DNA from: a virus
DNA: 20,279 nt
Reading direction: 5' to 3' (one strand)
IMG/VR virus record: IMGVR_UViG_3300032249_000050
Coordinates: 1-20,279 of that record
Shown here: piece after piece, positions 4,014 through 20,054 of the stretch
Layout of the letters: every line of letters starts with the position of its first letter
Position numbering within the stretch: position 1 is the first letter of the stretch
The notes under the pieces: generated by a model
The model's input: the letters and a program-made list of their open reading frames with translations, nothing else
Databases searched by the model: none
What the model was told of the DNA's origin: nothing
Made by a program: the position numbers and the translations under genes

Positions 4014-4577
4014 ATGATTGTAATAGAAAATATTATTGAGAAACAATATCAAGATTTTATTGAGGAGCTGCTTTTTGGGGGTCAATTTCCTTGGAATCTT
4101 ATAAATGATATAACTTATGGTAATCAAAAATTAGATAGTAAAAATCAAACTCCAGGGTTAAATCATGTATTTTTTGATAGAGGTCAAGGAAATAATTATT
4201 ACCATTTAGTTTTACCAATATTACTTCAAGCATTAGGTAAGGCTAATTTAAAAATATTAGATGTAATTACAGTTAGAAGTTTTTTGCAGTTAGCCAGCCC
4301 TAATCGTAGAGAACACAATAACCCTCATGTAGATAAAGATTTCCCTCACTATGCTTTTTTGTATTATGTAAATAATTCTGATGGGGATACGTTCTTTTTT
4401 GAAGAAACAACAGAGCAAATACCCAAAAGTTCTGTTACAGAAAAAACTAAATTTGTTGTAAAAGAAAGATTTAGCCCAAAAAAAGGCACAATAGTTATTT
4501 TTGATGGTAAACAATATCATGCTAGTTCATCTCCATCAGAGGGAAAAAGATGTGTAATTAACTACAATGCAACTTAA
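4014..4577 (+). CDS. 2-oxoglutarate/Fe(II)-dependent oxygenase (prolyl-4-hydroxylase-like)
   Basis: A 187-residue double-stranded beta-helix oxygenase. The iron ligands are visible as HVD (His105, Asp107) and the distal His169 in KQYHAS; Arg179 ten residues later is placed to hold the 2-oxoglutarate carboxylate. The strand pattern DFPHYAFLYYVNNSDGDTFF and then GTIVIFDG is typical of the family. Family enzymes hydroxylate proteins, nucleobases or small molecules using O2 and 2-oxoglutarate; the substrate here cannot be told. Such genes are frequent in aquatic phages. Base composition is strikingly AT-rich: three 60-base lines (from 4021, 4201 and 4441) contain 17, 15 and 14 G+C, against 22 and 26 in lines at 4801 and 5281. 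It has no SD and starts directly at the previous stop. Composition and flanking repeats suggest a late arrival. Confidence 0.85.
   Translation: MIVIENIIEKQYQDFIEELLFGGQFPWNLINDITYGNQKLDSKNQTPGLNHVFFDRGQGNNYYHLVLPILLQALGKANLKILDVITVRSFLQLASPNRREHNNPHVDKDFPHYAFLYYVNNSDGDTFFFEETTEQIPKSSVTEKTKFVVKERFSPKKGTIVIFDGKQYHASSSPSEGKRCVINYNAT
4570..4577 (+). repeat. 8-bp direct repeat, right copy (CAACTTAA)
   Basis: Identical to 4006-4013. It ends the oxygenase gene and runs into the SD (AAGAGG) of the zinc-ribbon gene at 4587. Confidence 0.55.
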
Positions 4578-8326: not shown

Positions 8327-9871
8327 ATGAGCCTACATACCGCAGCAAAATACTTAGAATCCCAAGGCCGGGGGAACGACAAGATGCTCGTTCATATGAC
8401 TCCTAATGAAGTCAAGGGGTTACAAAGTCTAGCTATGGCTGCTGGGGGGTCTCTCTCAATTAACCCACAAACGGGTCTTGCAGAAGCAGGGTTTTTAGAG
8501 TCTATTCTCCCAATGCTCGCAGGTGCAGGCTTAATGATGATTCCAGGAGTTGGGCCTTTAGCTGCTGCTGGTATGGTTGGGGGTGCAACTGGTATTGCTA
8601 CTGGAAGCCTAGAAAAAGGCTTAATGGCTGGCCTTGGCGCATATGGTGGTGCTGGGTTAGCAGGTAGTTTATCTAGTGCTGGGGGTTCTGCGTTAGCTGA
8701 GGCGGGGGGTAAAGCTGCTACTGATTTAGGTACTGAAGCTGTTAGTAGCAACTTAAGTGGTCAAGTTATGGATGCTAGTAGAGGCATGATTGAACCAAAC
8801 ATAACAGAAATAGCGCAAAGCACCCTTACCCCACAAAATTTCCCTAACATGACGCCAGACCAGTTAACTAGTCTTCAGTCACAAGTACCCAATATGGCTA
8901 ATCCAATGGAAGGTGTACGCGCTGCTGGTATGGCTAATGCTACTACTGACTTAACTCCAACAGCAGCTATGGGTAAAGGTCTTAGTGCAATAACTAGCTC
9001 ACCCAGTGCAGCGGGTAGCTTCCTTAAAGACAACATACTTAGTATAGGTGCTGCTGCAGTTCCAGTTTTAGCACAAGATACCCAAGATACCCAAGGCTAC
9101 CAGCCAATGACAGAAGAAGAGGAAAGCAACTTAAAACGCATTTCTCCTAATTTCAGAGCTATGCAGCCCACTACACCAAATCCATATTATCAAGCTCAGT
9201 ATCCAATGTATGCTAGTGGTGGGCCTGTAGAGCGTATGAGTCAGATGAACACAGCTTTAAACCCGCAAGGTGGTCTATATCCACAGGGCATGATTGATAA
9301 GACTCAATACGCATTACCTACTCAACGCCCAACTAGTATGGAAGTAGTAGACGCTGGCGCTCAAAGAATGTTTGCGGAAGGCGGTATCACCCGTTATGCT
9401 CCTGGTGGGGTTGCTCACTTACCTGTAAAAGGTACATACCGTGATTCTGACTCAGCTACGGCAAATAAAGATGCTTACGAAGCTGCGATGATTCGCCTAA
9501 ATAAAATTCGCAAAGGTGCTAACTTATCTAGTGTCAACATGCCTAAGTCTAATGTTAAGGGTTTGGGTGACTTACCTGAACTTGCAGCGGGAGGTAGCCT
9601 AGGAGGATATTCAGATGGTGGTCGCATGCTTAAAGGGCTTGGTGATGGTATGTCTGACTCTATCCCTGCTACGATTGGTAACAAACAACCCGCTAGATTG
9701 GCTGATGGTGAATTTGTGGTTCCAGCCGATGTAGTCTCCCATTTAGGTAATGGCTCAACTGATGCGGGTGCTAAGAAGCTCTACAGCATGATGGACAAGA
9801 TTCGCAAAGCCCGTACAGGTACAAAGAAACAAGGCAAAAAGATTAACCCTAACAAATATTTACCTGCGTAG
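8327..9871 (+). CDS. Virion protein with hydrophobic glycine-rich domain and double-glycine motifs (probable internal protein)
   Basis: A 514-residue protein. The N-terminal 40 residues are helical. Residues 55-125 are hydrophobic and Gly/Ala-rich (FLESILPMLAGAGLMMIPGV onwards), able to enter membranes. Residues 125-290 are Thr/Ser/Pro/Gln-rich. From 295 a series of short [YFL]AxGG motifs appears (Gly pairs at 298, 352, 360, 422, 426 and 431). The C-terminus has a well-conserved-looking block (GLGDGMSDSIPATIGNKQPA, then LADGEFVVPADVV and GNGSTDAGAKKLY) ending in a Lys-rich tail. I recognise this block from tape-measure-like or internal proteins of many aquatic phages. The SD AAGG (8316-8319) is 7 bases before the start. 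By order it is likely packaged in the particle and may be ejected; enzymatic motifs are not seen. Confidence 0.68.
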   Translation: MSLHTAAKYLESQGRGNDKMLVHMTPNEVKGLQSLAMAAGGSLSINPQTGLAEAGFLESILPMLAGAGLMMIPGVGPLAAAGMVGGATGIATGSLEKGLMAGLGAYGGAGLAGSLSSAGGSALAEAGGKAATDLGTEAVSSNLSGQVMDASRGMIEPNITEIAQSTLTPQNFPNMTPDQLTSLQSQVPNMANPMEGVRAAGMANATTDLTPTAAMGKGLSAITSSPSAAGSFLKDNILSIGAAAVPVLAQDTQDTQGYQPMTEEEESNLKRISPNFRAMQPTTPNPYYQAQYPMYASGGPVERMSQMNTALNPQGGLYPQGMIDKTQYALPTQRPTSMEVVDAGAQRMFAEGGITRYAPGGVAHLPVKGTYRDSDSATANKDAYEAAMIRLNKIRKGANLSSVNMPKSNVKGLGDLPELAAGGSLGGYSDGGRMLKGLGDGMSDSIPATIGNKQPARLADGEFVVPADVVSHLGNGSTDAGAKKLYSMMDKIRKARTGTKKQGKKINPNKYLPA

Positions 9872-9880
9872 GAGAACAGC

Positions 9881-10543
9881 ATGGGCGGAATGGTTTCTGG
9901 AGCAGCACAAAAAATAGGTTCAACCTCCCCTAGTGGTGGTAAATCAAGCCCAGCTCCTCAAAATGCATATGGCTCATCTTATCAAGCTCCCGCGGCAAAC
10001 GTATATCAACCTTCTTATCTCGCCCCTCAACAAGGTATGGGTGGTGGTAAATCTAGTGGTTTAGGTTCTGGTGGTTATGGTGGTGTTCCTGCATTTAATC
10101 AACAGCCTATGGGTAATATAGGGCAAGCAGTTCAAAATTTAGTTGGTGGTAAGTCTAGCGATATGGGTCAAGGAGGCTATCAATCTGCCCCCTCGTTTAA
10201 CCCGTATCAACAGCAACAATTTAACCCGTATCAACAACAGCAATTTAGCCCGTACCAACAGCAACAAGGCGTTTCTGGGTTACAAGGTTTATATAACAGC
10301 ATGATGGGTCAACAACAGCAAATGCGGCAGCCAATGCAGCGGCAGCCAATGCAACAGTATCAAGATCCAGCTTTACAATATAGACCTAGCATGCAAAACG
10401 CACAGTCGGCTTTATCTAGAGTAAGACCTAGCGTACAAAGGCAAGGGCAAGATGCGCAAGCTGCACGTATTGCGGAGTTAGAAGCTCAATTAGCAAGTGG
10501 GGGCAATTATGGTAATCCGACTTATAGCTATGATGCTGGTTAA
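9881..10543 (+). CDS. Gln/Gly/Pro-rich low-complexity virion protein
   Basis: A 220-residue protein. The GGKSS motif recurs at residues 19, 55 and 89, the last two within a longer repeat (GGKSS[GD][LM]GxGGYxxxPxFN). Three perfect eight-residue units FNPYQQQQ (the third FSPYQQQQ) fill residues 106-129, followed by a Gln/Met-rich stretch. The last 40 residues contain a short helix (DAQAARIAELEAQLAS) and a Tyr/Gly end. The SD AGGAG overlaps the stop of the previous gene. Composition resembles intrinsically disordered, prion-like sequence. No enzymatic domain is seen. Its place between large internal-type proteins suggests a virion component or assembly factor. It is possibly a fast-evolving spacer gene. 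Confidence 0.62.
   Translation: MGGMVSGAAQKIGSTSPSGGKSSPAPQNAYGSSYQAPAANVYQPSYLAPQQGMGGGKSSGLGSGGYGGVPAFNQQPMGNIGQAVQNLVGGKSSDMGQGGYQSAPSFNPYQQQQFNPYQQQQFSPYQQQQGVSGLQGLYNSMMGQQQQMRQPMQRQPMQQYQDPALQYRPSMQNAQSALSRVRPSVQRQGQDAQAARIAELEAQLASGGNYGNPTYSYDAG
10196..10267 (+). repeat. Three tandem 24-bp repeats (FNPYQQQQ)
   Basis: Units at 10196-10219, 10220-10243 and 10244-10267 encode F[NS]PYQQQQ in frame. They differ at only a few synonymous positions plus one Asn-to-Ser change, so unlike the 66-bp repeats these are a fairly recent expansion, probably variable in number between relatives. Confidence 0.9.
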
Positions 10544-10566: not shown

Positions 10567-10998
10567 ATGCTACAAAGCGCTCAGTCGTTCGAGGCTAAAA
10601 AAGTTGCAGCAGAGATTTTATTAAGAGAAGTAGGTTTACAGCCATGCGGGGACTTAGAAGCCTTGTTTTGGACTGACGAAGAGAATAATATTGAGTGGGT
10701 GATAGGTTACACAGCATTTATTGGTAAGACCTGTCAGATGCATATGGTAAATCTTAAGGGCGGGTATACCCCTAAAGGTTTGTTATTTGGTGCTTTTGAT
10801 TTCCCGTTTAATTACTGCGGGTTAGAAAAAGCCTTTGGAATTGTTAATAGTCTTAATACAAAGGCTATGGAGTACGACCAGAAGTTAGGGTTTAAAGAGG
10901 CTATCCGTTTTCCTGGGATGCATGCAGACGGTGGCGATATGGTTGTTTTTGAAATGGACAAAGCTGATTGCAGATGGATCAGGGAGCATAGAAAATGA
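10567..10998 (+). CDS. GNAT-like protein, acetyl-CoA loop apparently degenerate
   Basis: A 143-residue protein. The C-terminal half (FGIVNSLNTKAMEYDQKLGF followed by EAIRFPG) matches GNAT motif B, with the usual Asn, Ala, Tyr and LGF positions and a closing strand (DMVVFEM). The acyl-CoA pyrophosphate loop (Q/RxxGxG/A) expected before it is not clear; the nearest candidate is YTPKGLLFGAF around 67-77. The SD AGGAG (10553-10557) supports the start. The stop overlaps the next start by 4 bases (ATGA). T7 gp13 is a small protein of similar size that I recall as belonging to the acetyltransferase fold and that also precedes the internal virion genes, so a structural or assembly role is as likely as catalysis. 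Confidence 0.65.
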   Translation: MLQSAQSFEAKKVAAEILLREVGLQPCGDLEALFWTDEENNIEWVIGYTAFIGKTCQMHMVNLKGGYTPKGLLFGAFDFPFNYCGLEKAFGIVNSLNTKAMEYDQKLGFKEAIRFPGMHADGGDMVVFEMDKADCRWIREHRK

Positions 10999-13865
10999 AT
11001 TTACTTGGGATGAAACGGAAGCTGTTGCCACTTAGCGGACCTATGGGCGGCGGCGGTAAAGGCGGTGGTGGTTCTCCTGGCCCTCAACAGGTTACTAGTA
11101 CAACTACGTCTTCCAATATCCCTGAGTACGCTCGTCCTTATGTAGAGAACATGCTCCAGTCTGCACAAACGCAGATTTATAACGATGACATGACAAGTTT
11201 TAGGCCATATACGCCATATAGTTCAGATCCAAACAAATACTTTGCTGGTTTTTCTCCAATGCAACAAGAGGCACAGCAAGCTGCTTATAACTTGCAAACT
11301 CCAGGTCAATTTGGATTAGGTTCTGAATTGGCAGGGCAGGCTGGTATTCAGTCTTTGGGCGCGCAACAACAAGCAAATTTTTTAGGTAATCAAGCTTTAG
11401 GTTATGGGCAAGCTGGCTCTATGTATGGTGGTGCGGGTGCCGAACAAGCAATGCAAGCCGCTCAACGTGCGCAACAACAAGCTCAAATGTACGGACGCCA
11501 AGGTGCGGGTTATGGCGCCGCCGCCGCTGGTTTATCTCCAGAAGCACAACAGTATGGTCAACAAGCTGCTAATATTGGTATGGGTGGTTTAGGTTTTGGT
11601 GCTATGGGCGCTGGGTATGGCGGTCGCGGTGCGCAAGCTGCGGAACAAGGGTTTGGTGCAGGTGCACAGTTTGCACAACAAGCTACTGATCCAAGAGCCA
11701 TCCAAGCATATATGTCTCCCTATATGCAAAATGTGGTGGACTACCAAAAAACACAAGCTGCTCGTGATTATCAGATTGCTCAACAAGCCCGTCAAGCAGG
11801 TGCCGTTGCTAAAGGTGCCTTTGGTGGTAGCCGTCAAGCTATTGAAAATGCAGAAGCTCAGCGTAACTTAATGAGTCAGTTGCAAGGCATTGAGGGTATG
11901 GGCGCACAAAAGGCGTTTGAAGATGCACAACGGCAACAACAGTTTGGCGCTAACTTAGGGCTCCAAGGATTACAAGCAGGTTATGGCGGTCTTGGCATTG
12001 GTATGCAAGGTGCTCAAACAGGGCTACAAGGGCTTGGTACTGCAATGCAAGGCCAACAAGCAGGGTTAGCTGGTTTAGGTCAAGCTGGTAGTTTGCTTGG
12101 TCAGGGTATGCAAGGTGCTGGTGTTGGCTTGTCTGGTGTGGGCCAGCAGTTAGGCGCTGGCAATCTAGGACTTCAGGGTACTGCACAGGGTATTCAGGGT
12201 GCACAAGCTGGTATGCAAGGTGTTCAAGGCGCTACTCAAGCGGGACAGTATGGTTTAGCAGGCTTAGGTCAAGCTACTCAGGCAGGGTCTGCATTAGGTA
12301 ATTTAGGCGGTCAACAACTTGGTGCTCAACAAAATATTATTAATACTCAAAGTACGCTAGGCGGACAGCAGCAGGCAATGGAACAGCAGAAGATTAATCA
12401 AGCTATCCAAGACTTTGCTACACAGCAGCAGTATCCGTTCATGCAACTGGGTATGCTCAACAACTTACTCCGTGGCTTGCCAATGCAATCCATGAGCACT
12501 CAACAATATCAAGCTGCTCCTAGCATGCTAACCCAGGGTCTGGGCGCTGCAGGTACTCTAGCTGGCGCTTACAAAGCATTTGGCGCTAAAGAAGGCGGTG
12601 TTGTTAAGGGACTTAAGGCTGGCGGGGCAGTAGCTAAATACGCTGCAGGAGGCAATACAAGCAGTGAGGTTGTTAATAGCGTTCGCGGCAAGTTAGCCCA
12701 AATGGATGAAGCTCAGCTACAGCAAATAATGAAAACATCATCAAGCCAAGAAGTTCGTGAAATGGCTGCTGAAGTGTTGATGGAAAAGAAAATGGCTATG
12801 CAGGCTGAACAACAAGCCCCGCAAGTACCAATGAGTGAAGGTATTGCAGCATTACCTGCTCCTGCTATGGACCAAATGGCTGGTGGTGGCATTGTTGCCT
12901 TTGCTGAAGGTGATTTGGTTAACGAAGAAGAAGATTTAAAGTATCAAAACATGATCCAACGCCAGCGTGAAGCTGCGGGTATTACTGGTCCAGCTAATAC
13001 AAAGTTTAAAGAGTTTTTGGCTTCCCAAGTAGGTGCTTTGCCCGGAATGAAAGAGCAAGCTAAGGGTCAGATGATGATGGACTACTTCTCTAACTTTGGT
13101 ACACAACCCGGCGGTGCACTCTTTGCTGGCCTTAAAGCAGCTAAAGAAGTTGGTCCACAATTTAAAGCAACTGCTGATAAGCTCAATAAAGCCGAAATGG
13201 ACTTGATGAAGGGTCAAGCTGATCTCGAGCAGGCCGATCGCCTTGAGAAACTTGGTTTGGTTGATAAAGCAAATGCATTACGAGATAAATACGATGAGCG
13301 TGCAGCTGCTTATAAACGCACAATGGACGCTGCTAGGATTCAAGCTCAGGCATCTATGGCTTCCGCTGCCCGTGCTACTGATTTAGATAGAGATGCTGAC
13401 GCGTACTTTAATCTGTTAGTTGGTGAAGGTATGGATCCTAAAGATCCAAAAACCAAAGCACTTGCACGTCAAAAAGCCCGTGAAGGTGCAAACCCATACG
13501 CTCAAGGCAAGCTTGATCTCCAAACCGAAGCTGCTATTACTGCTCGTGAAAAAGATGATTCTCAGCTTAAAGCCTTACGTACGCAACTTGCCATAGCGGA
13601 CGACAAAGACAAACCAAAAATTATGGCGGATATGGAAACTCGTAGACAGCAGATCCGTGCAGAAATTACCAAGCCACCTGCTCCTGGGACTACCACTCCT
13701 CCCCCTGGTGCTCCTGCTCCTGGTGCCCCTGCAAATGCACGTCCTATGGTAGCTGCTCCCCCCGCTGCTGTTGACATGCTAAAAAACAACGACACACCTG
13801 AAATGCGTAAGAATTTTGATGCTATATTTGGGGCTGGAGCCGCTGCTAAAGCGCTAGGTAAATAA
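10995..13865 (+). CDS. Large Gly/Ala/Gln-rich internal virion protein with glycine heptads
   Basis: A 956-residue protein. After a Gly-rich start comes a conserved-looking segment (IPEYARPYVENMLQSAQ, then FAGFSPMQQ). Residues 110-230 are Gln/Ala/Gly-rich. Residues 239-310 hold a block seen in many phage proteins (YMSPYMQNVVDYQ and GAFGGSR at 274-280). Residues 318-443 are about 18 heptads of the type GxxxG[LM]Q. Double-glycine motifs lie at 534, 541 and 630-632. About 720-790 is coiled coil, and 893-917 a Pro-rich linker. The end (VDMLKNNDTPEMRKNFDAIF then GAGAA) is another recurring terminal motif. The SD AGGGAG (10981-10986) supports this ATG. By composition and place it resembles ejection proteins such as T7 gp14/gp15 or P22 gp20, which form a conduit across the envelope; this is inference, no homology was tested. 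Confidence 0.65.
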   Translation: MNLLGMKRKLLPLSGPMGGGGKGGGGSPGPQQVTSTTTSSNIPEYARPYVENMLQSAQTQIYNDDMTSFRPYTPYSSDPNKYFAGFSPMQQEAQQAAYNLQTPGQFGLGSELAGQAGIQSLGAQQQANFLGNQALGYGQAGSMYGGAGAEQAMQAAQRAQQQAQMYGRQGAGYGAAAAGLSPEAQQYGQQAANIGMGGLGFGAMGAGYGGRGAQAAEQGFGAGAQFAQQATDPRAIQAYMSPYMQNVVDYQKTQAARDYQIAQQARQAGAVAKGAFGGSRQAIENAEAQRNLMSQLQGIEGMGAQKAFEDAQRQQQFGANLGLQGLQAGYGGLGIGMQGAQTGLQGLGTAMQGQQAGLAGLGQAGSLLGQGMQGAGVGLSGVGQQLGAGNLGLQGTAQGIQGAQAGMQGVQGATQAGQYGLAGLGQATQAGSALGNLGGQQLGAQQNIINTQSTLGGQQQAMEQQKINQAIQDFATQQQYPFMQLGMLNNLLRGLPMQSMSTQQYQAAPSMLTQGLGAAGTLAGAYKAFGAKEGGVVKGLKAGGAVAKYAAGGNTSSEVVNSVRGKLAQMDEAQLQQIMKTSSSQEVREMAAEVLMEKKMAMQAEQQAPQVPMSEGIAALPAPAMDQMAGGGIVAFAEGDLVNEEEDLKYQNMIQRQREAAGITGPANTKFKEFLASQVGALPGMKEQAKGQMMMDYFSNFGTQPGGALFAGLKAAKEVGPQFKATADKLNKAEMDLMKGQADLEQADRLEKLGLVDKANALRDKYDERAAAYKRTMDAARIQAQASMASAARATDLDRDADAYFNLLVGEGMDPKDPKTKALARQKAREGANPYAQGKLDLQTEAAITAREKDDSQLKALRTQLAIADDKDKPKIMADMETRRQQIRAEITKPPAPGTTTPPPGAPAPGAPANARPMVAAPPAAVDMLKNNDTPEMRKNFDAIFGAGAAAKALGK
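11946..12323 (+). repeat. About 18 degenerate glycine-rich heptads
   Basis: Residues 318-443 divide without gaps into seven-residue units such as GANLGLQ, GLGIGMQ, GAQTGLQ, GLGTAMQ, GQQAGLA, GAQAGMQ and GLGQATQ. Position 1 is Gly in most, position 5 often Gly or Ala, position 6 Leu/Met/Ile and position 7 Gln. The result is a chain of GxxxG motifs, typical of tightly packed helices. Confidence 0.78.
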
Positions 13866-13877
13866 TAAGGGGTTTAA

Positions 13878-16800
13878 ATGGCAAACCCATTTGAGCAGTT
13901 TGTAAAGCGGGAGGAAGAAAATCCTTTTGCGCAGTACGCTACACCGCAGCCAGCAACGGATGAAAATCCGTTTGCTCAATTTACTACGCCCAACCAAGAG
14001 CCAGCGCAAACAGAACCTACAGTATTTCAAAGGGTTAAAGATATTGCCGCTGCACCTATTGAAGCAATTATGGGTAAAGACGCATTTAAAGAAAGTGCTC
14101 CAACTCCATCCCCATTAAAAGGTTCTGTAAAGAAAGGCTTTTTAAACGTAGAGCAATCTGTACTACAGAATCAACTTGCTAGCTTAATGGACTTACAAGC
14201 AGCAGATAAAGAAAAATACGGTGAAACTTATCAAGCTGCGCCAGCGGATCAATTAGAAAAAATTAGTGCTCGAGATAAAACTATTCAAGATAAGTTACGT
14301 AGTGTTGCAGACTTAGGACTGCAGCGTAAAGCTATTGAAAATAAAGAAGGTGTATTTGAGCTATCAAAAAGTTTAAAAGATTTGTACTCTACCAAAGAAT
14401 ATAAGGACAGCTCTTTCTTAGATGGTTTAGGAATGATTGGTAATAAGATTGTTGAGAACCCATCTGGCATTCCTGGTTGGATAGCTGGTGTTGGTATTGA
14501 AAGCCTCCCACAATCTATGGTTACAGTAGCGGCTGCATTGGCTGCTCGCATGAGTGGTATGGGTCCTAAAGGTGCGGCTATTGCTGGTGGTGGTTCTTCG
14601 TCTTTTATGGAGTTTGGTGGCCAGTATGCCGATCTACGTGCACAGGGTTTAAGCCACGAACAGGCTTGGGAAGAAGCTGGAGTTAAGTCTGCCATTATTG
14701 GTTTGTTTGATGCGGCTTCTTTTAACGCTGCTGGTAAGTCAGCAGGTACAGTTTTTAAGAACATAGAAAAAGGCGCTCTAAAAGAAACTGTTAAAGATGT
14801 AGGTAAAGGTGTTGGCGTACAGGCTCTTTACGGTGGCGCTGGTGAAGGCTTAGGTTCTTTTGCTATTAACCAAAAAGTAGACCCAGGTGCTGTGTTAGAG
14901 GAAATGGTTGGTGAAGTATTTGGTGCACCAGTAGAAGCTGTATCTACATATCAAAATAAAAAAGCTGAAGCAGCGGGGCAAGTGCCGCCAGTACCAACAG
15001 CACGTGAGTTGATGCAGCAGCAAGGATTTATTTCACCCAAACAACAAGCAGAGACAGAACAAACTACTGAAGAAAAACCTGAGCAGTCTGTGCTCGAAAC
15101 TTCTAAAGAGAAACTATCATCTCTTGTAGATGACGTAAAAGAAACATTAGCTAGCTATCTACCAAGCAAGACGCCTGAAGCCTACGGTGAGCCTGGAGAA
15201 GTTAGTATTGAGCAATTAACCTCACGGTACAGGGGCCTTGGTCTAACTCAGGAGCAAGCACAAGAATTAGCTGTTGCTGACTTTACCGAAGCTGGCTTAC
15301 CGATAGCCACCCCTACCCCCAGTGCTGAAACTGTATCTACCCCAATGGAGGTCCCAAGTGATCGAATTGAACCTATCGCCGGAACAATTGAGCCTGGCAT
15401 TCCAGCACCTCAAATTCAAACTGAACTACAACCAATTGCCCCCGGAACTCCTGGAATTAAACCTGGAGAATTGGGTGGAGCTCTCCCACCTGCTGGACCT
15501 GTTGGAAGCGGAGAAACAGCTCAGCCGAGTGCATTAGAACCAACGGCAGAAGAAGATTTACAAACACTTAATAAGCTAAAAAGAAGACTAGCTGATGCTG
15601 ACAGAGCGGAAAGAAGGTCAGAAGATACCTATCCTAATAGCCCAACAAAGTTAAAAGTACAAAAAATTAGGGCTGAAATGGATGCTTTCTTTAATGAAAG
15701 TGAGCCAAGAAGAGCTAAAAGAATTGCAGAGCTTACTGGTCAGTCAATACCTTCTACCGATACTACAGAAGTAATAACCCCAGAGGTTGCACCTGCGCTA
15801 GAAGCAGAACCTAAGGTAGTTACTAAAGGCAAAGCAGGTCGCCCTAAAGCCGTGCTAACTCCGGAAGAAACAGCTGCTAAGAAACAAGTTAGGGCTACAC
15901 AAGTTAAAGAGTGGAAAGCAACTAATAAAGAGTTGCTAGCTGCCAGAGATGTTCTTGACCTACCAGCGCCAACTAGAGATAACTTTGCTAGTCAGGATGC
16001 GTACCTTGATTCCAGCATGCAATTTAGGGCTAACCGCAACAAGGCTTTAGATTTATTAAACGGTTTGGCTACAGGTGCTCGTCGTGACACCGCTTTGGGT
16101 AAAACTGCCAAGGAGGGTTTAGCAAACCCATCTATTACGCCACAAGAACTTGCATCGGTAAAAGAACGTGAAGCATTACGCAAAGGTACAGCCCGTTCGG
16201 AGCAGTTACTTGAATCTACTAATGGTGAAGACAATCAGGAATTTACTAAGTTTAATAACGCTAGCCAAGCAATTAGCTGGATAGCCAAGAACGGCAATGC
16301 CTTTGAGAAGTTTTTAGCTAAGCGCCTGGAGCCATTCTTACGTAACGTTAAGCTAGTAGTCGTAACTGACCCTAACACCGATATGCCCGCATCTCGTAGA
16401 CAAGACTTTGTAGGTGCTAACGGCATGTACTTTGAGTCTAAGAAAGAGCGGGTAATTTACCTCGATGCCCAAGGCGGAATTAATAACACAGTATTCCTAC
16501 ACGAAGCCCTACACGGTGCAACCCTTGCACGTATTAACCGATACTTAGATGATATTGCTGAAGGTCGTGAGCCTAACCCTAAGTTAGCTGAAGCTGTAGA
16601 AGAACTCAATGCCATTATGAAACGGGCTGGTCGGTTCTATGAAGCGCTTAAAGCAGCTAATCTTACTGATGCTCGCACGGATGAGTTTGCACGGGTTAAT
16701 GCCTTTGGTGACTTAAAAGAGTTTGTGGCTTATGGTATGAGCTCCCCTGCTCTCCAAGAGTTTTTAATGCAGCTCCCAGGTATGTACGCAGGTGCTACTA

Positions 16801-19800
16801 CTCAAGCACCACAAGGCTTATTTACACGCTTTGTTCAATCCATCCGCAAAATATTTAACATGGGTCCAGAGCATGACTCGTCCATGCAAGACCTCATTAT
16901 TGTCACTGATAAGCTACTACGTGCACCTGATGCACAGGTAGTAACCGCAGACTCCGCCGCTGCTAAGAAGGCTAAGAAAGCCGCAGAAAAGGTGGATAAG
17001 GACTTAGAAGCTATCCAAGCCTCTAACGATGCGTTCAAGGTTACTGGCGGTGTAGGCAATGGGACTGTTGAGAGAGACTTTGGTAACTTTAAAGACCTAC
17101 TTGATGCACGCTTTGCGGATATGGGTAATGGCTTTATATCTAAGACGCTATACACCATGCAGACAGCCGACATACTGCGCTGGAAGGGTGATGAGATTCC
17201 TGCTTTACTAGAGGTAGATAAGCTGCAACAACAGATGTCAGCAATGCGTACCAATATGTTAGCTGCCTCTGCCGATAAAGCAGATCAGTTAGGTGCCTTT
17301 ATTCGTAAGAACGGTATGGAAACTTTGAGCGACGCTATGCACTTAGCTCGTCTTAAAGAAGTAAGCCCAACCAAGTACACAGACCGTGCCGATGCACTTA
17401 AAAACGACACTGACATTAAGTTCTATGAAGCTAAGATTGCAGACCCCAATACAGCCCCTGCTAGCGTAGTAGGGTACAAAGGACAATTGACGCAGCGCAA
17501 AAAAGATATTGATGCTGTATTTGCCGCTTGGGAAAAGCTAGGTAAGCAAAAGGGTGGGCATGACATTTATAAGATGGTTCGTCAGTTCTACATCGACAAC
17601 TACAACCTGACCCGTAACCTATTAGATGAGCAAATCAATGAGTTGCCGATTGAACCCGCCGCTAAAGCTAACTTAATGAAGTCCATCCGCCTAATGCATG
17701 AACAGGCGGCAGTTAGAGACGACGCTACAGGTAAGAAAACCAAAGCCCTACCCGAAGAATACTTTCCATTAATGCGTGAAGGTAAATACTGGCTGCGCAT
17801 CACAGGTGGCCCCAACGGGCGTGAGTTTTGGCTGTTTGAAAATGGCGTTGACCGTAACGTGTTTTTGCAAAAACGAGCCAAGAAACTAGGCTTAAGCGTT
17901 GATGATCCTAAAATTAGTGCAGGTGATGACGTTACTACCCTACGCAAAGACTACGCTGCTGGCAGTGAGTTACTTCAAGAAATGTTTGGCACGATTGATA
18001 GCTTGGCAGTAGACCCTAAGTTTGATTCTTCTAAATTCCCCGATGCTGCAACCGCAAATCAAGCGTTTAAAGAAGAGCTTAAAGACCAGTTGTATCAGAC
18101 TTATTTAATGACCATGCCGGAGCGTAGCTACCGTAAGCAGTTCCTGCACGCTGAGAAAGTTACTGGTTTTAGCGCAGATGTATTCCGCAACTTTAAAATA
18201 TCCGCTACCAAGATTGCAAATCAAGCAGCAAAGCTAAAGTATTCAACCAAGATTTTGAATCAAGTTGATGCAGCTAGAAGCAGCTTAGACGGCATGCCAG
18301 CTCTAGAGCGGGCTAAGATGGAATTGTTTGTAAACGAGATTAGTAAGCGGGCGCAAGAAGAAATTAACCCACCTGAACAGGGTGCTTTTGTAACTGGGGT
18401 TAACCAGTTTGCGTTTATTATGTTACTAACCAGCGCTGCTTCTGCCGCTACGCAGATGGCTTCCATTCCTATTATGGTTATGCCTAACTTACAGCAAAAG
18501 TACGGGTATAAAGACTCTTCCGTTAAGCTGGCTAAGTACATGAACTTCTTGAAGTCGGTTGGGGTTACTAAACTAGACCCTAACAACGGTGATGTAACAT
18601 GGACTGCTCCTTCTATTGGTTCTTCTAGTTGGGTTAAGGCTAGCCCTATATTGCAAAAAGCATTCCAAGCAGGGCTTGAGCGAGAAGTAATGACTGGCAC
18701 AAATACAGCCGTGCTTACCAACAAGAATAGAACGCCTGATAACTCTTACTCTAGCTTGCCAGGAGTAGCAGCAAGAACCTCATTTAACGCAATGAGTGCT
18801 ATGTTCAACGGTGCAGAGCGTCTCACCCGTGAGATGACTTTTATGATGACCTTTGAGCTTGAGTACGCTAAGAGCAAAAACTTTGACGAGGCAGTGCAAA
18901 AAGCAACTGACACCACGCACGAAACTTTAGGTAGGTATGACAGCTTCAACCGCCCACGCATTCTAAGAAACGCATTTGGTAAGACCGTTGGTCAGTTTAA
19001 GATGTACTCCGTTTATATGACTTCGTTCTTCATGCGCAATTTCTACAACTCTATTCGTATCAGCATACCTTTAGCAGAAAGAGCAGCGGCTATGCAGCGT
19101 ATGGCAGGGGTTTTAGTTATGGGTGGTATGTTCCACGGCTTAGTGGGTATGCCTTTGTACGGTGTAATTACCGATACAGTTGATGCCATGTTGGATCAGT
19201 TTGGTGACGAAGAAGAGAAAAAGCAACGACGTGCTAAGAACCCATTGACTTCTGACAACTCCAATTTACGGTTCCGCTATGAGTTTTTACCTGAGAATTT
19301 TGGGCATATTGAAATAACTGGATTAGATGGGCGTAAACATAGACTAAGTGAGTTACTTGAAAAAGGGCCTATTTCTGCGCTTACTGACATTAACATTGGT
19401 TCCCGTACCTCGTTTGATGGCATGTGGTTTAGAGATCCTAATCCCGGTAAAAATTGGACCGAAACAGCAATTAACATTGCAACCTCTAACTTGGGTCCGG
19501 GTGTATCCACAGGTTTAAATTTAGCCCGTGGTATTGATGATCTTAGCAAGGGTGAAATATTACGTGGGCTAGAAAAGCTTGTGCCCGCACTTTTTAGAAC
19601 TCCTATTACTGCATACCGTATTGGTACTGAAGGCGCCGAAACTACCAAGGGTGCAGACATGTTATCTCGTGATGAGCTTAACAACCGCAACATAATTGCC
19701 CAGGCTATTGGTTTTCCTCCTACTAGATTAGCTCGTATTCAAGAGCAAAGTTTTGAGTCACAAAAAGAAGTAAGGAAAGCCCAAGACCGCCGAGCAAAAA

Positions 19801-20054
19801 TATTGGATGGTTTGCATCGTGTTGCGTTTGACCCTGAGGGTAACAAGGCAGACTTGAAAGAAGTTTTTGAGGATATTAAAAACTACAACCGCAGATACCC
19901 AATTGATAAGTACTTAATTGACATTGATACAATCGAGCGTTCTTTAGAAACTTATGCCAATAAACGTGGCATGACATACCGTGGTCAGGTAATCGAAGAG
20001 AAACTTGCCCCATATCTAGGCCCACTCTATAGAGCTACGGTACCCCTAAAGTAA
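13878..20054 (+). CDS. Giant internal/ejected multidomain protein with HExxH metalloprotease-like site
   Basis: A 2058-residue protein. The N-terminus has three NPFxQ[FY] motifs (residues 3, 15, 30). Residues about 190-360 form a Gly/Ala-rich domain (from GWIAGVGIESLPQSMVTVAA). Then come disordered acidic and Pro-rich linkers (365-560), a charged coiled coil (565-625), and an AT-hook-like KAGRPKA (652-658). Residues 790-1030 look like a zincin: HEALH at 875-879 (His875, Glu876, His879) with a candidate third ligand Glu948 in KEFVAYG. The region 1030-1500 is largely helical. The C-terminus (1500-2050) has hydrophobic segments at 1511-1535 and 1743-1764 and resembles the LPD-type domains of phage polyvalent proteins, possibly LPD38; this is from memory. 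The SD AAGGGG (13867-13872) supports the start. Genes of this kind encode proteins injected with the DNA, but that is inference here. The gene ends immediately before the convergent terminator. Confidence 0.68.
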   Translation: MANPFEQFVKREEENPFAQYATPQPATDENPFAQFTTPNQEPAQTEPTVFQRVKDIAAAPIEAIMGKDAFKESAPTPSPLKGSVKKGFLNVEQSVLQNQLASLMDLQAADKEKYGETYQAAPADQLEKISARDKTIQDKLRSVADLGLQRKAIENKEGVFELSKSLKDLYSTKEYKDSSFLDGLGMIGNKIVENPSGIPGWIAGVGIESLPQSMVTVAAALAARMSGMGPKGAAIAGGGSSSFMEFGGQYADLRAQGLSHEQAWEEAGVKSAIIGLFDAASFNAAGKSAGTVFKNIEKGALKETVKDVGKGVGVQALYGGAGEGLGSFAINQKVDPGAVLEEMVGEVFGAPVEAVSTYQNKKAEAAGQVPPVPTARELMQQQGFISPKQQAETEQTTEEKPEQSVLETSKEKLSSLVDDVKETLASYLPSKTPEAYGEPGEVSIEQLTSRYRGLGLTQEQAQELAVADFTEAGLPIATPTPSAETVSTPMEVPSDRIEPIAGTIEPGIPAPQIQTELQPIAPGTPGIKPGELGGALPPAGPVGSGETAQPSALEPTAEEDLQTLNKLKRRLADADRAERRSEDTYPNSPTKLKVQKIRAEMDAFFNESEPRRAKRIAELTGQSIPSTDTTEVITPEVAPALEAEPKVVTKGKAGRPKAVLTPEETAAKKQVRATQVKEWKATNKELLAARDVLDLPAPTRDNFASQDAYLDSSMQFRANRNKALDLLNGLATGARRDTALGKTAKEGLANPSITPQELASVKEREALRKGTARSEQLLESTNGEDNQEFTKFNNASQAISWIAKNGNAFEKFLAKRLEPFLRNVKLVVVTDPNTDMPASRRQDFVGANGMYFESKKERVIYLDAQGGINNTVFLHEALHGATLARINRYLDDIAEGREPNPKLAEAVEELNAIMKRAGRFYEALKAANLTDARTDEFARVNAFGDLKEFVAYGMSSPALQEFLMQLPGMYAGATTQAPQGLFTRFVQSIRKIFNMGPEHDSSMQDLIIVTDKLLRAPDAQVVTADSAAAKKAKKAAEKVDKDLEAIQASNDAFKVTGGVGNGTVERDFGNFKDLLDARFADMGNGFISKTLYTMQTADILRWKGDEIPALLEVDKLQQQMSAMRTNMLAASADKADQLGAFIRKNGMETLSDAMHLARLKEVSPTKYTDRADALKNDTDIKFYEAKIADPNTAPASVVGYKGQLTQRKKDIDAVFAAWEKLGKQKGGHDIYKMVRQFYIDNYNLTRNLLDEQINELPIEPAAKANLMKSIRLMHEQAAVRDDATGKKTKALPEEYFPLMREGKYWLRITGGPNGREFWLFENGVDRNVFLQKRAKKLGLSVDDPKISAGDDVTTLRKDYAAGSELLQEMFGTIDSLAVDPKFDSSKFPDAATANQAFKEELKDQLYQTYLMTMPERSYRKQFLHAEKVTGFSADVFRNFKISATKIANQAAKLKYSTKILNQVDAARSSLDGMPALERAKMELFVNEISKRAQEEINPPEQGAFVTGVNQFAFIMLLTSAASAATQMASIPIMVMPNLQQKYGYKDSSVKLAKYMNFLKSVGVTKLDPNNGDVTWTAPSIGSSSWVKASPILQKAFQAGLEREVMTGTNTAVLTNKNRTPDNSYSSLPGVAARTSFNAMSAMFNGAERLTREMTFMMTFELEYAKSKNFDEAVQKATDTTHETLGRYDSFNRPRILRNAFGKTVGQFKMYSVYMTSFFMRNFYNSIRISIPLAERAAAMQRMAGVLVMGGMFHGLVGMPLYGVITDTVDAMLDQFGDEEEKKQRRAKNPLTSDNSNLRFRYEFLPENFGHIEITGLDGRKHRLSELLEKGPISALTDINIGSRTSFDGMWFRDPNPGKNWTETAINIATSNLGPGVSTGLNLARGIDDLSKGEILRGLEKLVPALFRTPITAYRIGTEGAETTKGADMLSRDELNNRNIIAQAIGFPPTRLARIQEQSFESQKEVRKAQDRRAKILDGLHRVAFDPEGNKADLKEVFEDIKNYNRRYPIDKYLIDIDTIERSLETYANKRGMTYRGQVIEEKLAPYLGPLYRATVPLK
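16500..16514 (+). other. HExxH zinc-binding motif in the giant protein
   Basis: Codons 875-879 encode HEALH, preceded by a hydrophobic strand and helix start (RVIYLDAQGGINNTVFL). Glu948 (codon at 16719-16721) in DLKEFVAYG, 69 residues after the second His, is the likely third ligand, giving a gluzincin-like order. Metal binding is predicted, not shown. Confidence 0.62.

Follow-up and report, generated by a model that had tools for sequence, protein, structure and literature searches.

The locus and the 956-residue protein

The window, a stretch of 20,279 bases covering positions 1–20,279 of the IMG/VR virus record IMGVR_UViG_3300032249_000050, encodes a 956-residue protein with a charge-free array of glycine-rich heptads. 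A preliminary description, made from the letters of the window, had drawn attention to this array and placed it correctly, in frame, at 11946–12323 (residues 318–443 of the open reading frame (ORF)). The protein comprises two modules, A and B; in A, the array is preceded by a Gly/Ala/Gln-rich N-terminal arm (N-arm), a conserved core and the tip loop GAFGGSR (Table 1). In the reading that we favour, with a probability of about 0.7, the protein is a DNA-ejection protein of podophage type and the array forms one arm of a very long antiparallel hairpin within it. Related loci were collected by scanning IMG/VR, where at least 593 stretches, out of 599 candidates, were confirmed as relatives; the best 80 of the 593 loci were listed, and later scans added more.

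Table 1. Features of the 956-residue protein and its adjoining genes in the window.
Feature	Coordinates	Strand	Basis
956-residue ORF: ejection-type protein A (residues 1 to ~545) fused to partner B (~546–956)	10995..13865	+	59/127 relatives fused, 68/127 separate
N-arm, residues ~100–232, Gly/Ala/Gln-rich, length matched to array	11292..11690	+	lag-7 identity z 3.2
Conserved hairpin core (putative), residues 233–317 (YMSPYMQ ... helix, tip, helix)	11691..11945	+	alignments; AlphaFold2 helices 233–272 and 277–355
Tip loop GAFGGSR, residues 274–280, near-invariant	11814..11834	+	alignments; mirror point of insertions
Heptad array, residues 318–443, 18 heptads, charge-free	11946..12323	+	composition, periodicity, length steps
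Conserved helix past the array, residues ~444–493, with YP anchor	12324..12473	+	alignment, AlphaFold2; PHROG 4287 match
Partner module B, residues 546–956; separate downstream gene in other phages	12630..13862	+	58/62 next ORFs match B profile
GNAT-like acyltransferase, directly upstream of the 956-residue ORF	10567..10998	+	phrog_4470, E 5.5e-20
Giant downstream protein, 2058 residues, DarB-like C-terminal half	13878..20054	+	phrog_10089, E 1.7e-52

Composition and periodicity of the heptad array

The 126 residues of the array include 42 Gly (33%), 25 Gln, 19 Leu and 18 Ala. As previously described, none of them carries a charge, and the stretch free of charged residues is longer still, extending over 149 residues from residue 314. 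The regularity of the repeat had been overstated, since the strict motif GxxxG[LM]Q, given for eighteen heptads, fits 4 of 18 in register. Nor was a continuous series of GxxxG contacts borne out, with Gly at both positions in 8 of 18 heptads and a small-xxx-small pattern in 14 of 18. A period of seven is present in the window protein, although modest at lag 7 itself (z 2.2, reached by 23 of 1000 shuffles); the values were z 5.4 at lag 14 (0 of 1000) and z 2.8 at lag 21 (3 of 1000). Across homologues the period held up: in 46 relatives with long arrays, the autocorrelation at lags 7, 14, 21, 28 and 35 was 1.49, 1.65, 1.48, 1.70 and 1.47 times expectation. In the same relatives, peaks at lags 3, 7, 11, 14, 18, 21 and 28 (smaller at 3, 11 and 18) and a trough at lag 2 gave a helix-like pattern. 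The array of one distant relative (L469) showed lags 18 and 11 instead of the heptad lags.

At 102.86 degrees per residue (3.5 residues per turn), the small, aliphatic and amide residues of the window array formed sharp stripes at 20, 129 and 253 degrees, respectively. None of 500 shuffles reached any of the three stripes, which vanished at 100 degrees, as fits a supercoiled helix. The array thus has an amide face, which might or might not line a helical tube of the phiX174 H type. Pooling 35 in-register members gave the family heptad L/M/I-Q-G-A/L/V-Q/G-x-G/A, with L/M/I at position a (40/17/11%), Q at b (57%), G at c (69%), A/L/V at d, Q/G at e, A/Q/L/T at f and G (55%) or A (23%) at g. The 4431 pooled array positions contained no Pro, Trp or Cys and 78 charged residues. 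A hydrophobic a/d stripe therefore runs beside the small-residue stripe, with the amide stripe opposite. The contrast drawn earlier with leucine zippers, according to which the array has no hydrophobic a/d positions, was mistaken: L/M/I and A/L/V lie 3/4 residues apart and one residue from the glycines.

Tandem Repeats Finder (TRF) detected no tandem DNA repeat at 11946–12323, and codon identity between the window heptads (134/325) matched the 137.6 expected from codon usage; recent DNA slippage was rejected on these grounds. Compared with the nearest relative (L002), the ratio of non-synonymous to synonymous changes (pN/pS) was 0.10 in the array, 0.09 in residues 30–230 and 0.19 in residues 231–317. 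Judged from these comparisons, the array is old and maintained by selection acting on the protein. It also serves as a warning that low-complexity Gly-rich segments can be under tight constraint.

Length of the array and of the N-arm

Array length was measured from the GGSR of the tip to the conserved YP motif. Among 250 unique members, 31 lacked the tip motif, 55 lacked the C-terminal anchor, one was too short and nine had duplicate cores, which left 154 measured arrays (for an earlier set of 178 members, the tip was missing in 22 and the YP anchor in 61). Upstream of the tip, the stretch between the FSP and YMSP motifs was taken as the N-region; 34 proteins lacked these N-side anchors, so that both regions were measured in 120 proteins, with arrays of 101–368 residues. 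By the same measure, the arrays of two distant relatives were very long (L458, 533 residues; L469, 468 residues), and the upstream arm of L469, from LSPMQQ to the tip, was nearly as long as its array (444 residues).

Array length equalled 3 modulo 7 in 101 of 117 distinct proteins and in 21 of 32 distinct lengths; 5 of the 16 exceptions differed by +11, likewise a near-whole number of helical turns. When more distant relatives were included, 117 of 154 arrays fell into the same class. The class held 56 of 60 proteins with flanks at least 60% identical to those of the window protein versus 39 of 60 of the rest, so stepping by whole heptads characterises the clade of the window and not the family at large. 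N-region lengths had a weak preference only (64 of 113 rows, 12 of 37 distinct lengths). A beta-type repeat of 14 residues was rejected because lengths step by 7 and not by 14, lag 2 is depleted and the helical lags peak.

The lengths of array and N-region were closely correlated (rho 0.967, n = 95; rho 0.963, n = 120). Neither the segment preceding FSP (rho −0.09) nor the one following YP (rho −0.02) varied with array length. The N-region minus the array lay between −54 and −48 (−51 ± 3) in 107 of 120 proteins, including the window protein (−51), while 5000 permutations gave a mean of 19.4 and a maximum of 31 such proteins. For the 54 classifiable proteins with Gly/Ala-rich N-arms, array = 1.01 (±0.02) × N + 51.5 (r 0.989), and 51 of them were within 3 residues of this line. 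In all 47 disjoint pairs of relatives with arrays of differing length, the N-region had lengthened or shortened along with the array, and in 40 of these pairs the two changes were equal to within 2 residues (permuted: mean 3.7, maximum 12 of 47 in 5000 permutations; control region: 1 of 47). Nine pairs could be formed among members that only the two latest scans had added; their contigs were checked by eye against the locus list and were absent from the earlier set. Eight of these nine agreed although none of the nine array changes was a multiple of 7, so the matching of lengths reaches beyond the heptad rule. The preliminary description had missed this second region of matched length before the GAFGGSR loop, and with it the reading of the array as only one of two arms.

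Mirrored insertions and Pro/aromatic-rich N-arms

Where in the two arms the matched changes fell was analysed in 30 pairs with flank identity of at least 0.75, of which 11 with multiple gaps were left out and 19 with single gaps kept. The distances of the gap from the tip in one arm and in the other differed by 8.1 residues with a standard deviation (SD) of 5.6 (rho 0.86). Permuting the partners raised the SD to 23.9, none of 20,000 permutations being as small as the observed value, and a parallel model gave 26.4. The insertions are thus mirrored about the tip. One pair (L216/L221) differed by +7/+7 residues in the two arms and was otherwise nearly identical beyond the first 40 residues; alignments of two further pairs showed +36/+36 (L418/L421) and +35/+35 residues (L005/L007).

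Eight members had a Gly/Ala-poor N-region, which in six (L056, L069, L222, L390, L219 and L225) consisted of Pro/aromatic-rich repeats without the Gly/Ala helix pattern. In these six, which were picked after seeing the data and include at least two close pairs (L219/L225 and L056/L069), the array was 2.02–2.12 times as long as the N-region and the slope of array against N-region was 2.17 ± 0.06. By textbook values, the rise per residue of an extended chain is 2.13–2.27 times that of a helix. This agreement is most simply read as two arms that must bridge equal physical distances, with the array forming a helix.

Structure prediction

An AlphaFold2 monomer model of residues 1–545 contained helices at 142–177, 185–231 and 233–272, the tip, and helices at 277–355, 365–406 and 430–493. 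In the model of a short form (L070), helices were predicted at 152–180, 182–236 and 245–309, and the array insertion falls near the break at 237–244. The predicted helices flanking the tip agree with a hairpin and are no proof of it. If fully helical, the arms of the window protein would measure approximately 195–250 Å. A viral structure library returned three models at E ≤ 0.001, unannotated or named as chaperones and without known function. A sequence search of solved structures with the relatives' alignment (A2) found none, and the VIA-align fold comparison found nothing to align.

Family identity and gene context

The PHROG 4287 family, named 'DNA ejection protein', was matched by 22 of 30 relatives and, in the window, by 12264–12629 (residues 424–545, E 4.6e-7). 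The earlier suggestion of an ejection protein is supported to this extent: a helical heptad array lies in a probable ejection protein. With the family profile, HHalign retrieved UMO76004 of Planktothrix phage Pag-Yong1 (99.7%), gp18 of the Octadecabacter virus DB2 (98.0%) and CV-1-33 gene 42 (97.9%). The neighbours of the latter include P22-coat-like and SLT-domain proteins, and in DB2 a cell-wall hydrolase follows. A tblastn search of cultured phages gave no match for the 956-residue protein or for one relative (L074), and five weak matches for another (L031). Two relatives were found on genome contigs, both in metagenome-assembled genomes.

The gene order is GNAT – A – B – giant protein, with A as the first gene of the A – B – giant cassette, after the GNAT gene. 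The long tail of the fused form was present in 59 of 127 relatives and the protein ended early in the other 68. Where an early end was followed by an ORF of more than 250 residues (n = 62), that ORF matched the tail profile in 58 cases. The window protein thus joins in one chain two proteins that roughly half of the relatives encode in neighbouring, unfused genes, which suggests that A and B work together. Further upstream, a 514-residue protein was conserved in 141 of the 169 related loci with enough flank; in the window (8327–9871) it matched no family of PHROG or Pfam. On the downstream side, 35 of 135 related loci had a recognisable DarB-like protein.

Elsewhere in the window, three 24-bp repeats at 10196–10267 code for Pro/Tyr/Gln-rich units within a 220-residue protein (9881–10543), and about two copies of a 66-bp repeat lie at 1407–1533 inside the gene at 1007–1993. 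For a 187-residue protein (4014–4577), two kinds of match were obtained, one to a DNA endonuclease V family (1.5e-39) and a weak one to 2OG-Fe(II) oxygenases.

A proposed hairpin in a probable DNA-ejection protein

Comparison among relatives, carried out at the level of sequence, established that the two arms are matched in length and mirrored in their insertions, that array length is quantised in heptads, that selection is purifying and that A is fused to B. A hairpin is well supported by these observations. An ejection role is supported by family and gene context; gene order, the PHROG 4287 matches and the ejected form of T7 gp14 together point to a podophage DNA-ejection protein, and this protein of a freshwater phage probably helps push viral DNA into bacteria.

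In the proposed hairpin, the chain would run from the N-arm through a conserved helix to the GAFGGSR tip and back through a second conserved helix into the heptad array. Both arms would span the same physical distance and would therefore lengthen together, by whole heptads in the clade of the window. With small, aliphatic and amide faces and 3.5 residues per turn, the arms could pack as a coiled coil without charge, the array being presumably helical along its whole length. The protein would be carried in the virion and ejected. Several copies might then assemble into a tube or collar whose glutamine face perhaps points to the DNA. In this way the short tail would be prolonged through the envelope, a task performed elsewhere by T7 gp14 and the phiX174 H protein, and B and the giant downstream protein might supply periplasmic and inner-membrane parts. 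A channel-lining role of the array, which the preliminary description had raised, is possible, and a glutamine-lined delivery tube with this lining and this place in the envelope is plausible.

Several observations weigh against this picture. Confidence in the AlphaFold2 models was low, with a predicted local distance difference test (pLDDT) of 58 and a predicted template modelling score (pTM) of 0.28 for residues 1–545, values below 50 at residues 378–432, and a pLDDT of 62 and pTM of 0.31 for the short form. There was no fold match in the PDB at E ≤ 0.001, and a sequence relation could be detected neither to T7 gp14 nor to P22 gp7. The whole 956-residue protein had no PHROG match (E 0.001), residues 30–317 had none either, and a search of whole records with PHROG 4287 succeeded in only 2 of 9, each of them a form with a short array. 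A Gly content of 33% disfavours a stable helix. Thirteen of 120 proteins lie outside the length rule, with L068, L050 and L055 missing it by about 25; L217 and L133 fit neither length rule, and the modulo-7 rule is weaker outside the clade of the window (39 of 60). Finally, the array gains up to approximately 250 residues over the common short form (approximately 370 Å if helical), which is long for a tube confined to the periplasm.

We tentatively suggest that freshwater phages tune the length of their DNA-delivery conduit in steps of approximately 10 Å, one heptad per arm at once, keeping the arms physically equal; where an arm turned from helix into extended chain, its residue number would have been halved. 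If so, the distance that each phage has to bridge, be it set by envelope or tail, could be read off from its arm length. The bridging of the envelope by podophages is structurally known in few cases, and this family offers a natural length series of 101–368 residues, so what sets the length of an ejection conduit becomes directly testable with phages of different arm lengths. The paired and mirrored changes, some of them between near-identical genes, provide evolutionary evidence for a hairpin where AlphaFold2 models poorly.

Alternative readings

The same hairpin might instead act inside the capsid, with arms that pack as spokes or scaffold against portal or core and whose length follows the geometry of the head or core and not that of a delivery tube. 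The available text of PMC11784390 describes eight copies of gp14 bridging portal and core in mature T7, length matching carries no information on location, and the arms of long members would exceed the usual periplasm. Array length was, however, uncorrelated with that of the 514-residue neighbour (p514, rho 0.03) or the giant protein (rho 0.28, n = 24, p 0.19) and weakly correlated with that of the phrog_3287 virion protein (rho 0.23, p 0.03). A rho of 0.82 with the 220-residue neighbour (p220) rests on 11 loci, and neighbour-gene lengths overall gave nothing clear. We consider a capsid location unlikely, though a serious candidate.

An elongated tail-tip or fibre protein, with the hairpin in a trimeric surface structure and relatives carrying a Peptidase S74 chaperone domain, is suggested by annotation: DB2 gp18, which matches the family, is annotated as tail spike/chaperone and the Pag-Yong1 relative as S74, and Parlo gp78 and Skulduggery gp25 also adjoin a GNAT gene on its downstream side. 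Neither Peptidase S74 nor any other Pfam domain was found in the window protein or 30 relatives, HHalign linked neither Parlo gp78 nor Skulduggery gp25 to the family, and PHROG 4287 is named for DNA ejection, all of which makes a fibre improbable.

A membrane-embedded glycine-zipper channel, as first suggested for the array, would account for the lack of charge and the small-xxx-small pattern, but it sits poorly with 57% Gln at one heptad position and we hold it to be very improbable. Mean Kyte-Doolittle hydropathy was 0.08 and the best 19-residue window reached 0.73, too low for a membrane helix; no transmembrane segment was recognised, membrane insertion of the array is unlikely, and the idea that it lies in a membrane found no support. 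Least credible of all is a neutral low-complexity spacer whose length changes by replication slippage, a reading that the low complexity and wide length variation would allow and that is already contradicted by length changes that match and mirror each other between two distinct regions, as well as by heptad codons diverged to expectation and the low pN/pS against L002.

Comparison with known systems

Two equal arms around a tip are known from the antiparallel coiled coils of SMC/Rad50 and the dynein stalk. Those are charged classical coiled coils of cellular motors, whereas the arms here are charge-poor and Gly-rich. Searches of the open-access PubMed Central (PMC) literature, subscription papers being outside this scope, brought up no ejection protein described with such arms or with matched lengths. 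The three PHROG 4287 members from named phages that were compared here, unlike the window protein, are short (294–316 residues) and without a long heptad array.

Sequence comparison with T7 gp14 and P22 gp7, both named in the preliminary description, brought no relation to light: HHalign gave 0.1% for T7 gp14, and PHROG 805 was found in 0 of 9 genomes. For P22 gp7, HHalign gave 2.6–3.2% with a shallow profile (effective number of sequences (Neff) 1.15), and PHROG 598 had no match in the window and a weak stretch with an internal stop in 1 of 9 genomes only. A relation to P22 gp7 too distant for these profiles could still exist. P22 gp7 and the window protein occupy the same place in the cassette. 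P22 gp7 (L245:4370-5059) also has a charge-free Gly/Ala/Gln/Asn run of 74 residues.

According to the available text of PMC11784390, the extended channel of DNA-ejected T7 contains six gp14 copies, each with two antiparallel helices and a short loop. The hairpin proposed here would have the same layout, as judged from the covariation of arm lengths and the mirrored insertions and not from a structure. Proteins like gp14 (approximately 196–240 residues) precede tunnel and inner-membrane proteins, as far as described in PMC8954989. The window protein is likewise the first of the probable ejection proteins, before the putative tunnel and the giant proteins; T7 gp14 differs from it in having 196 residues and no extendable arms.

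The tube of phiX174 H, as described in the available text of PMC7354561, spans the cell wall and is built of hendecad/heptad helices in which glutamine is the commonest inward residue. Resemblance to the window protein is by description: phiX174 H is a decamer of single helices with charged positions in a tail-less single-stranded DNA phage. Both would have heptad helices, and some relatives of the window protein change in length by steps of +11 residues.

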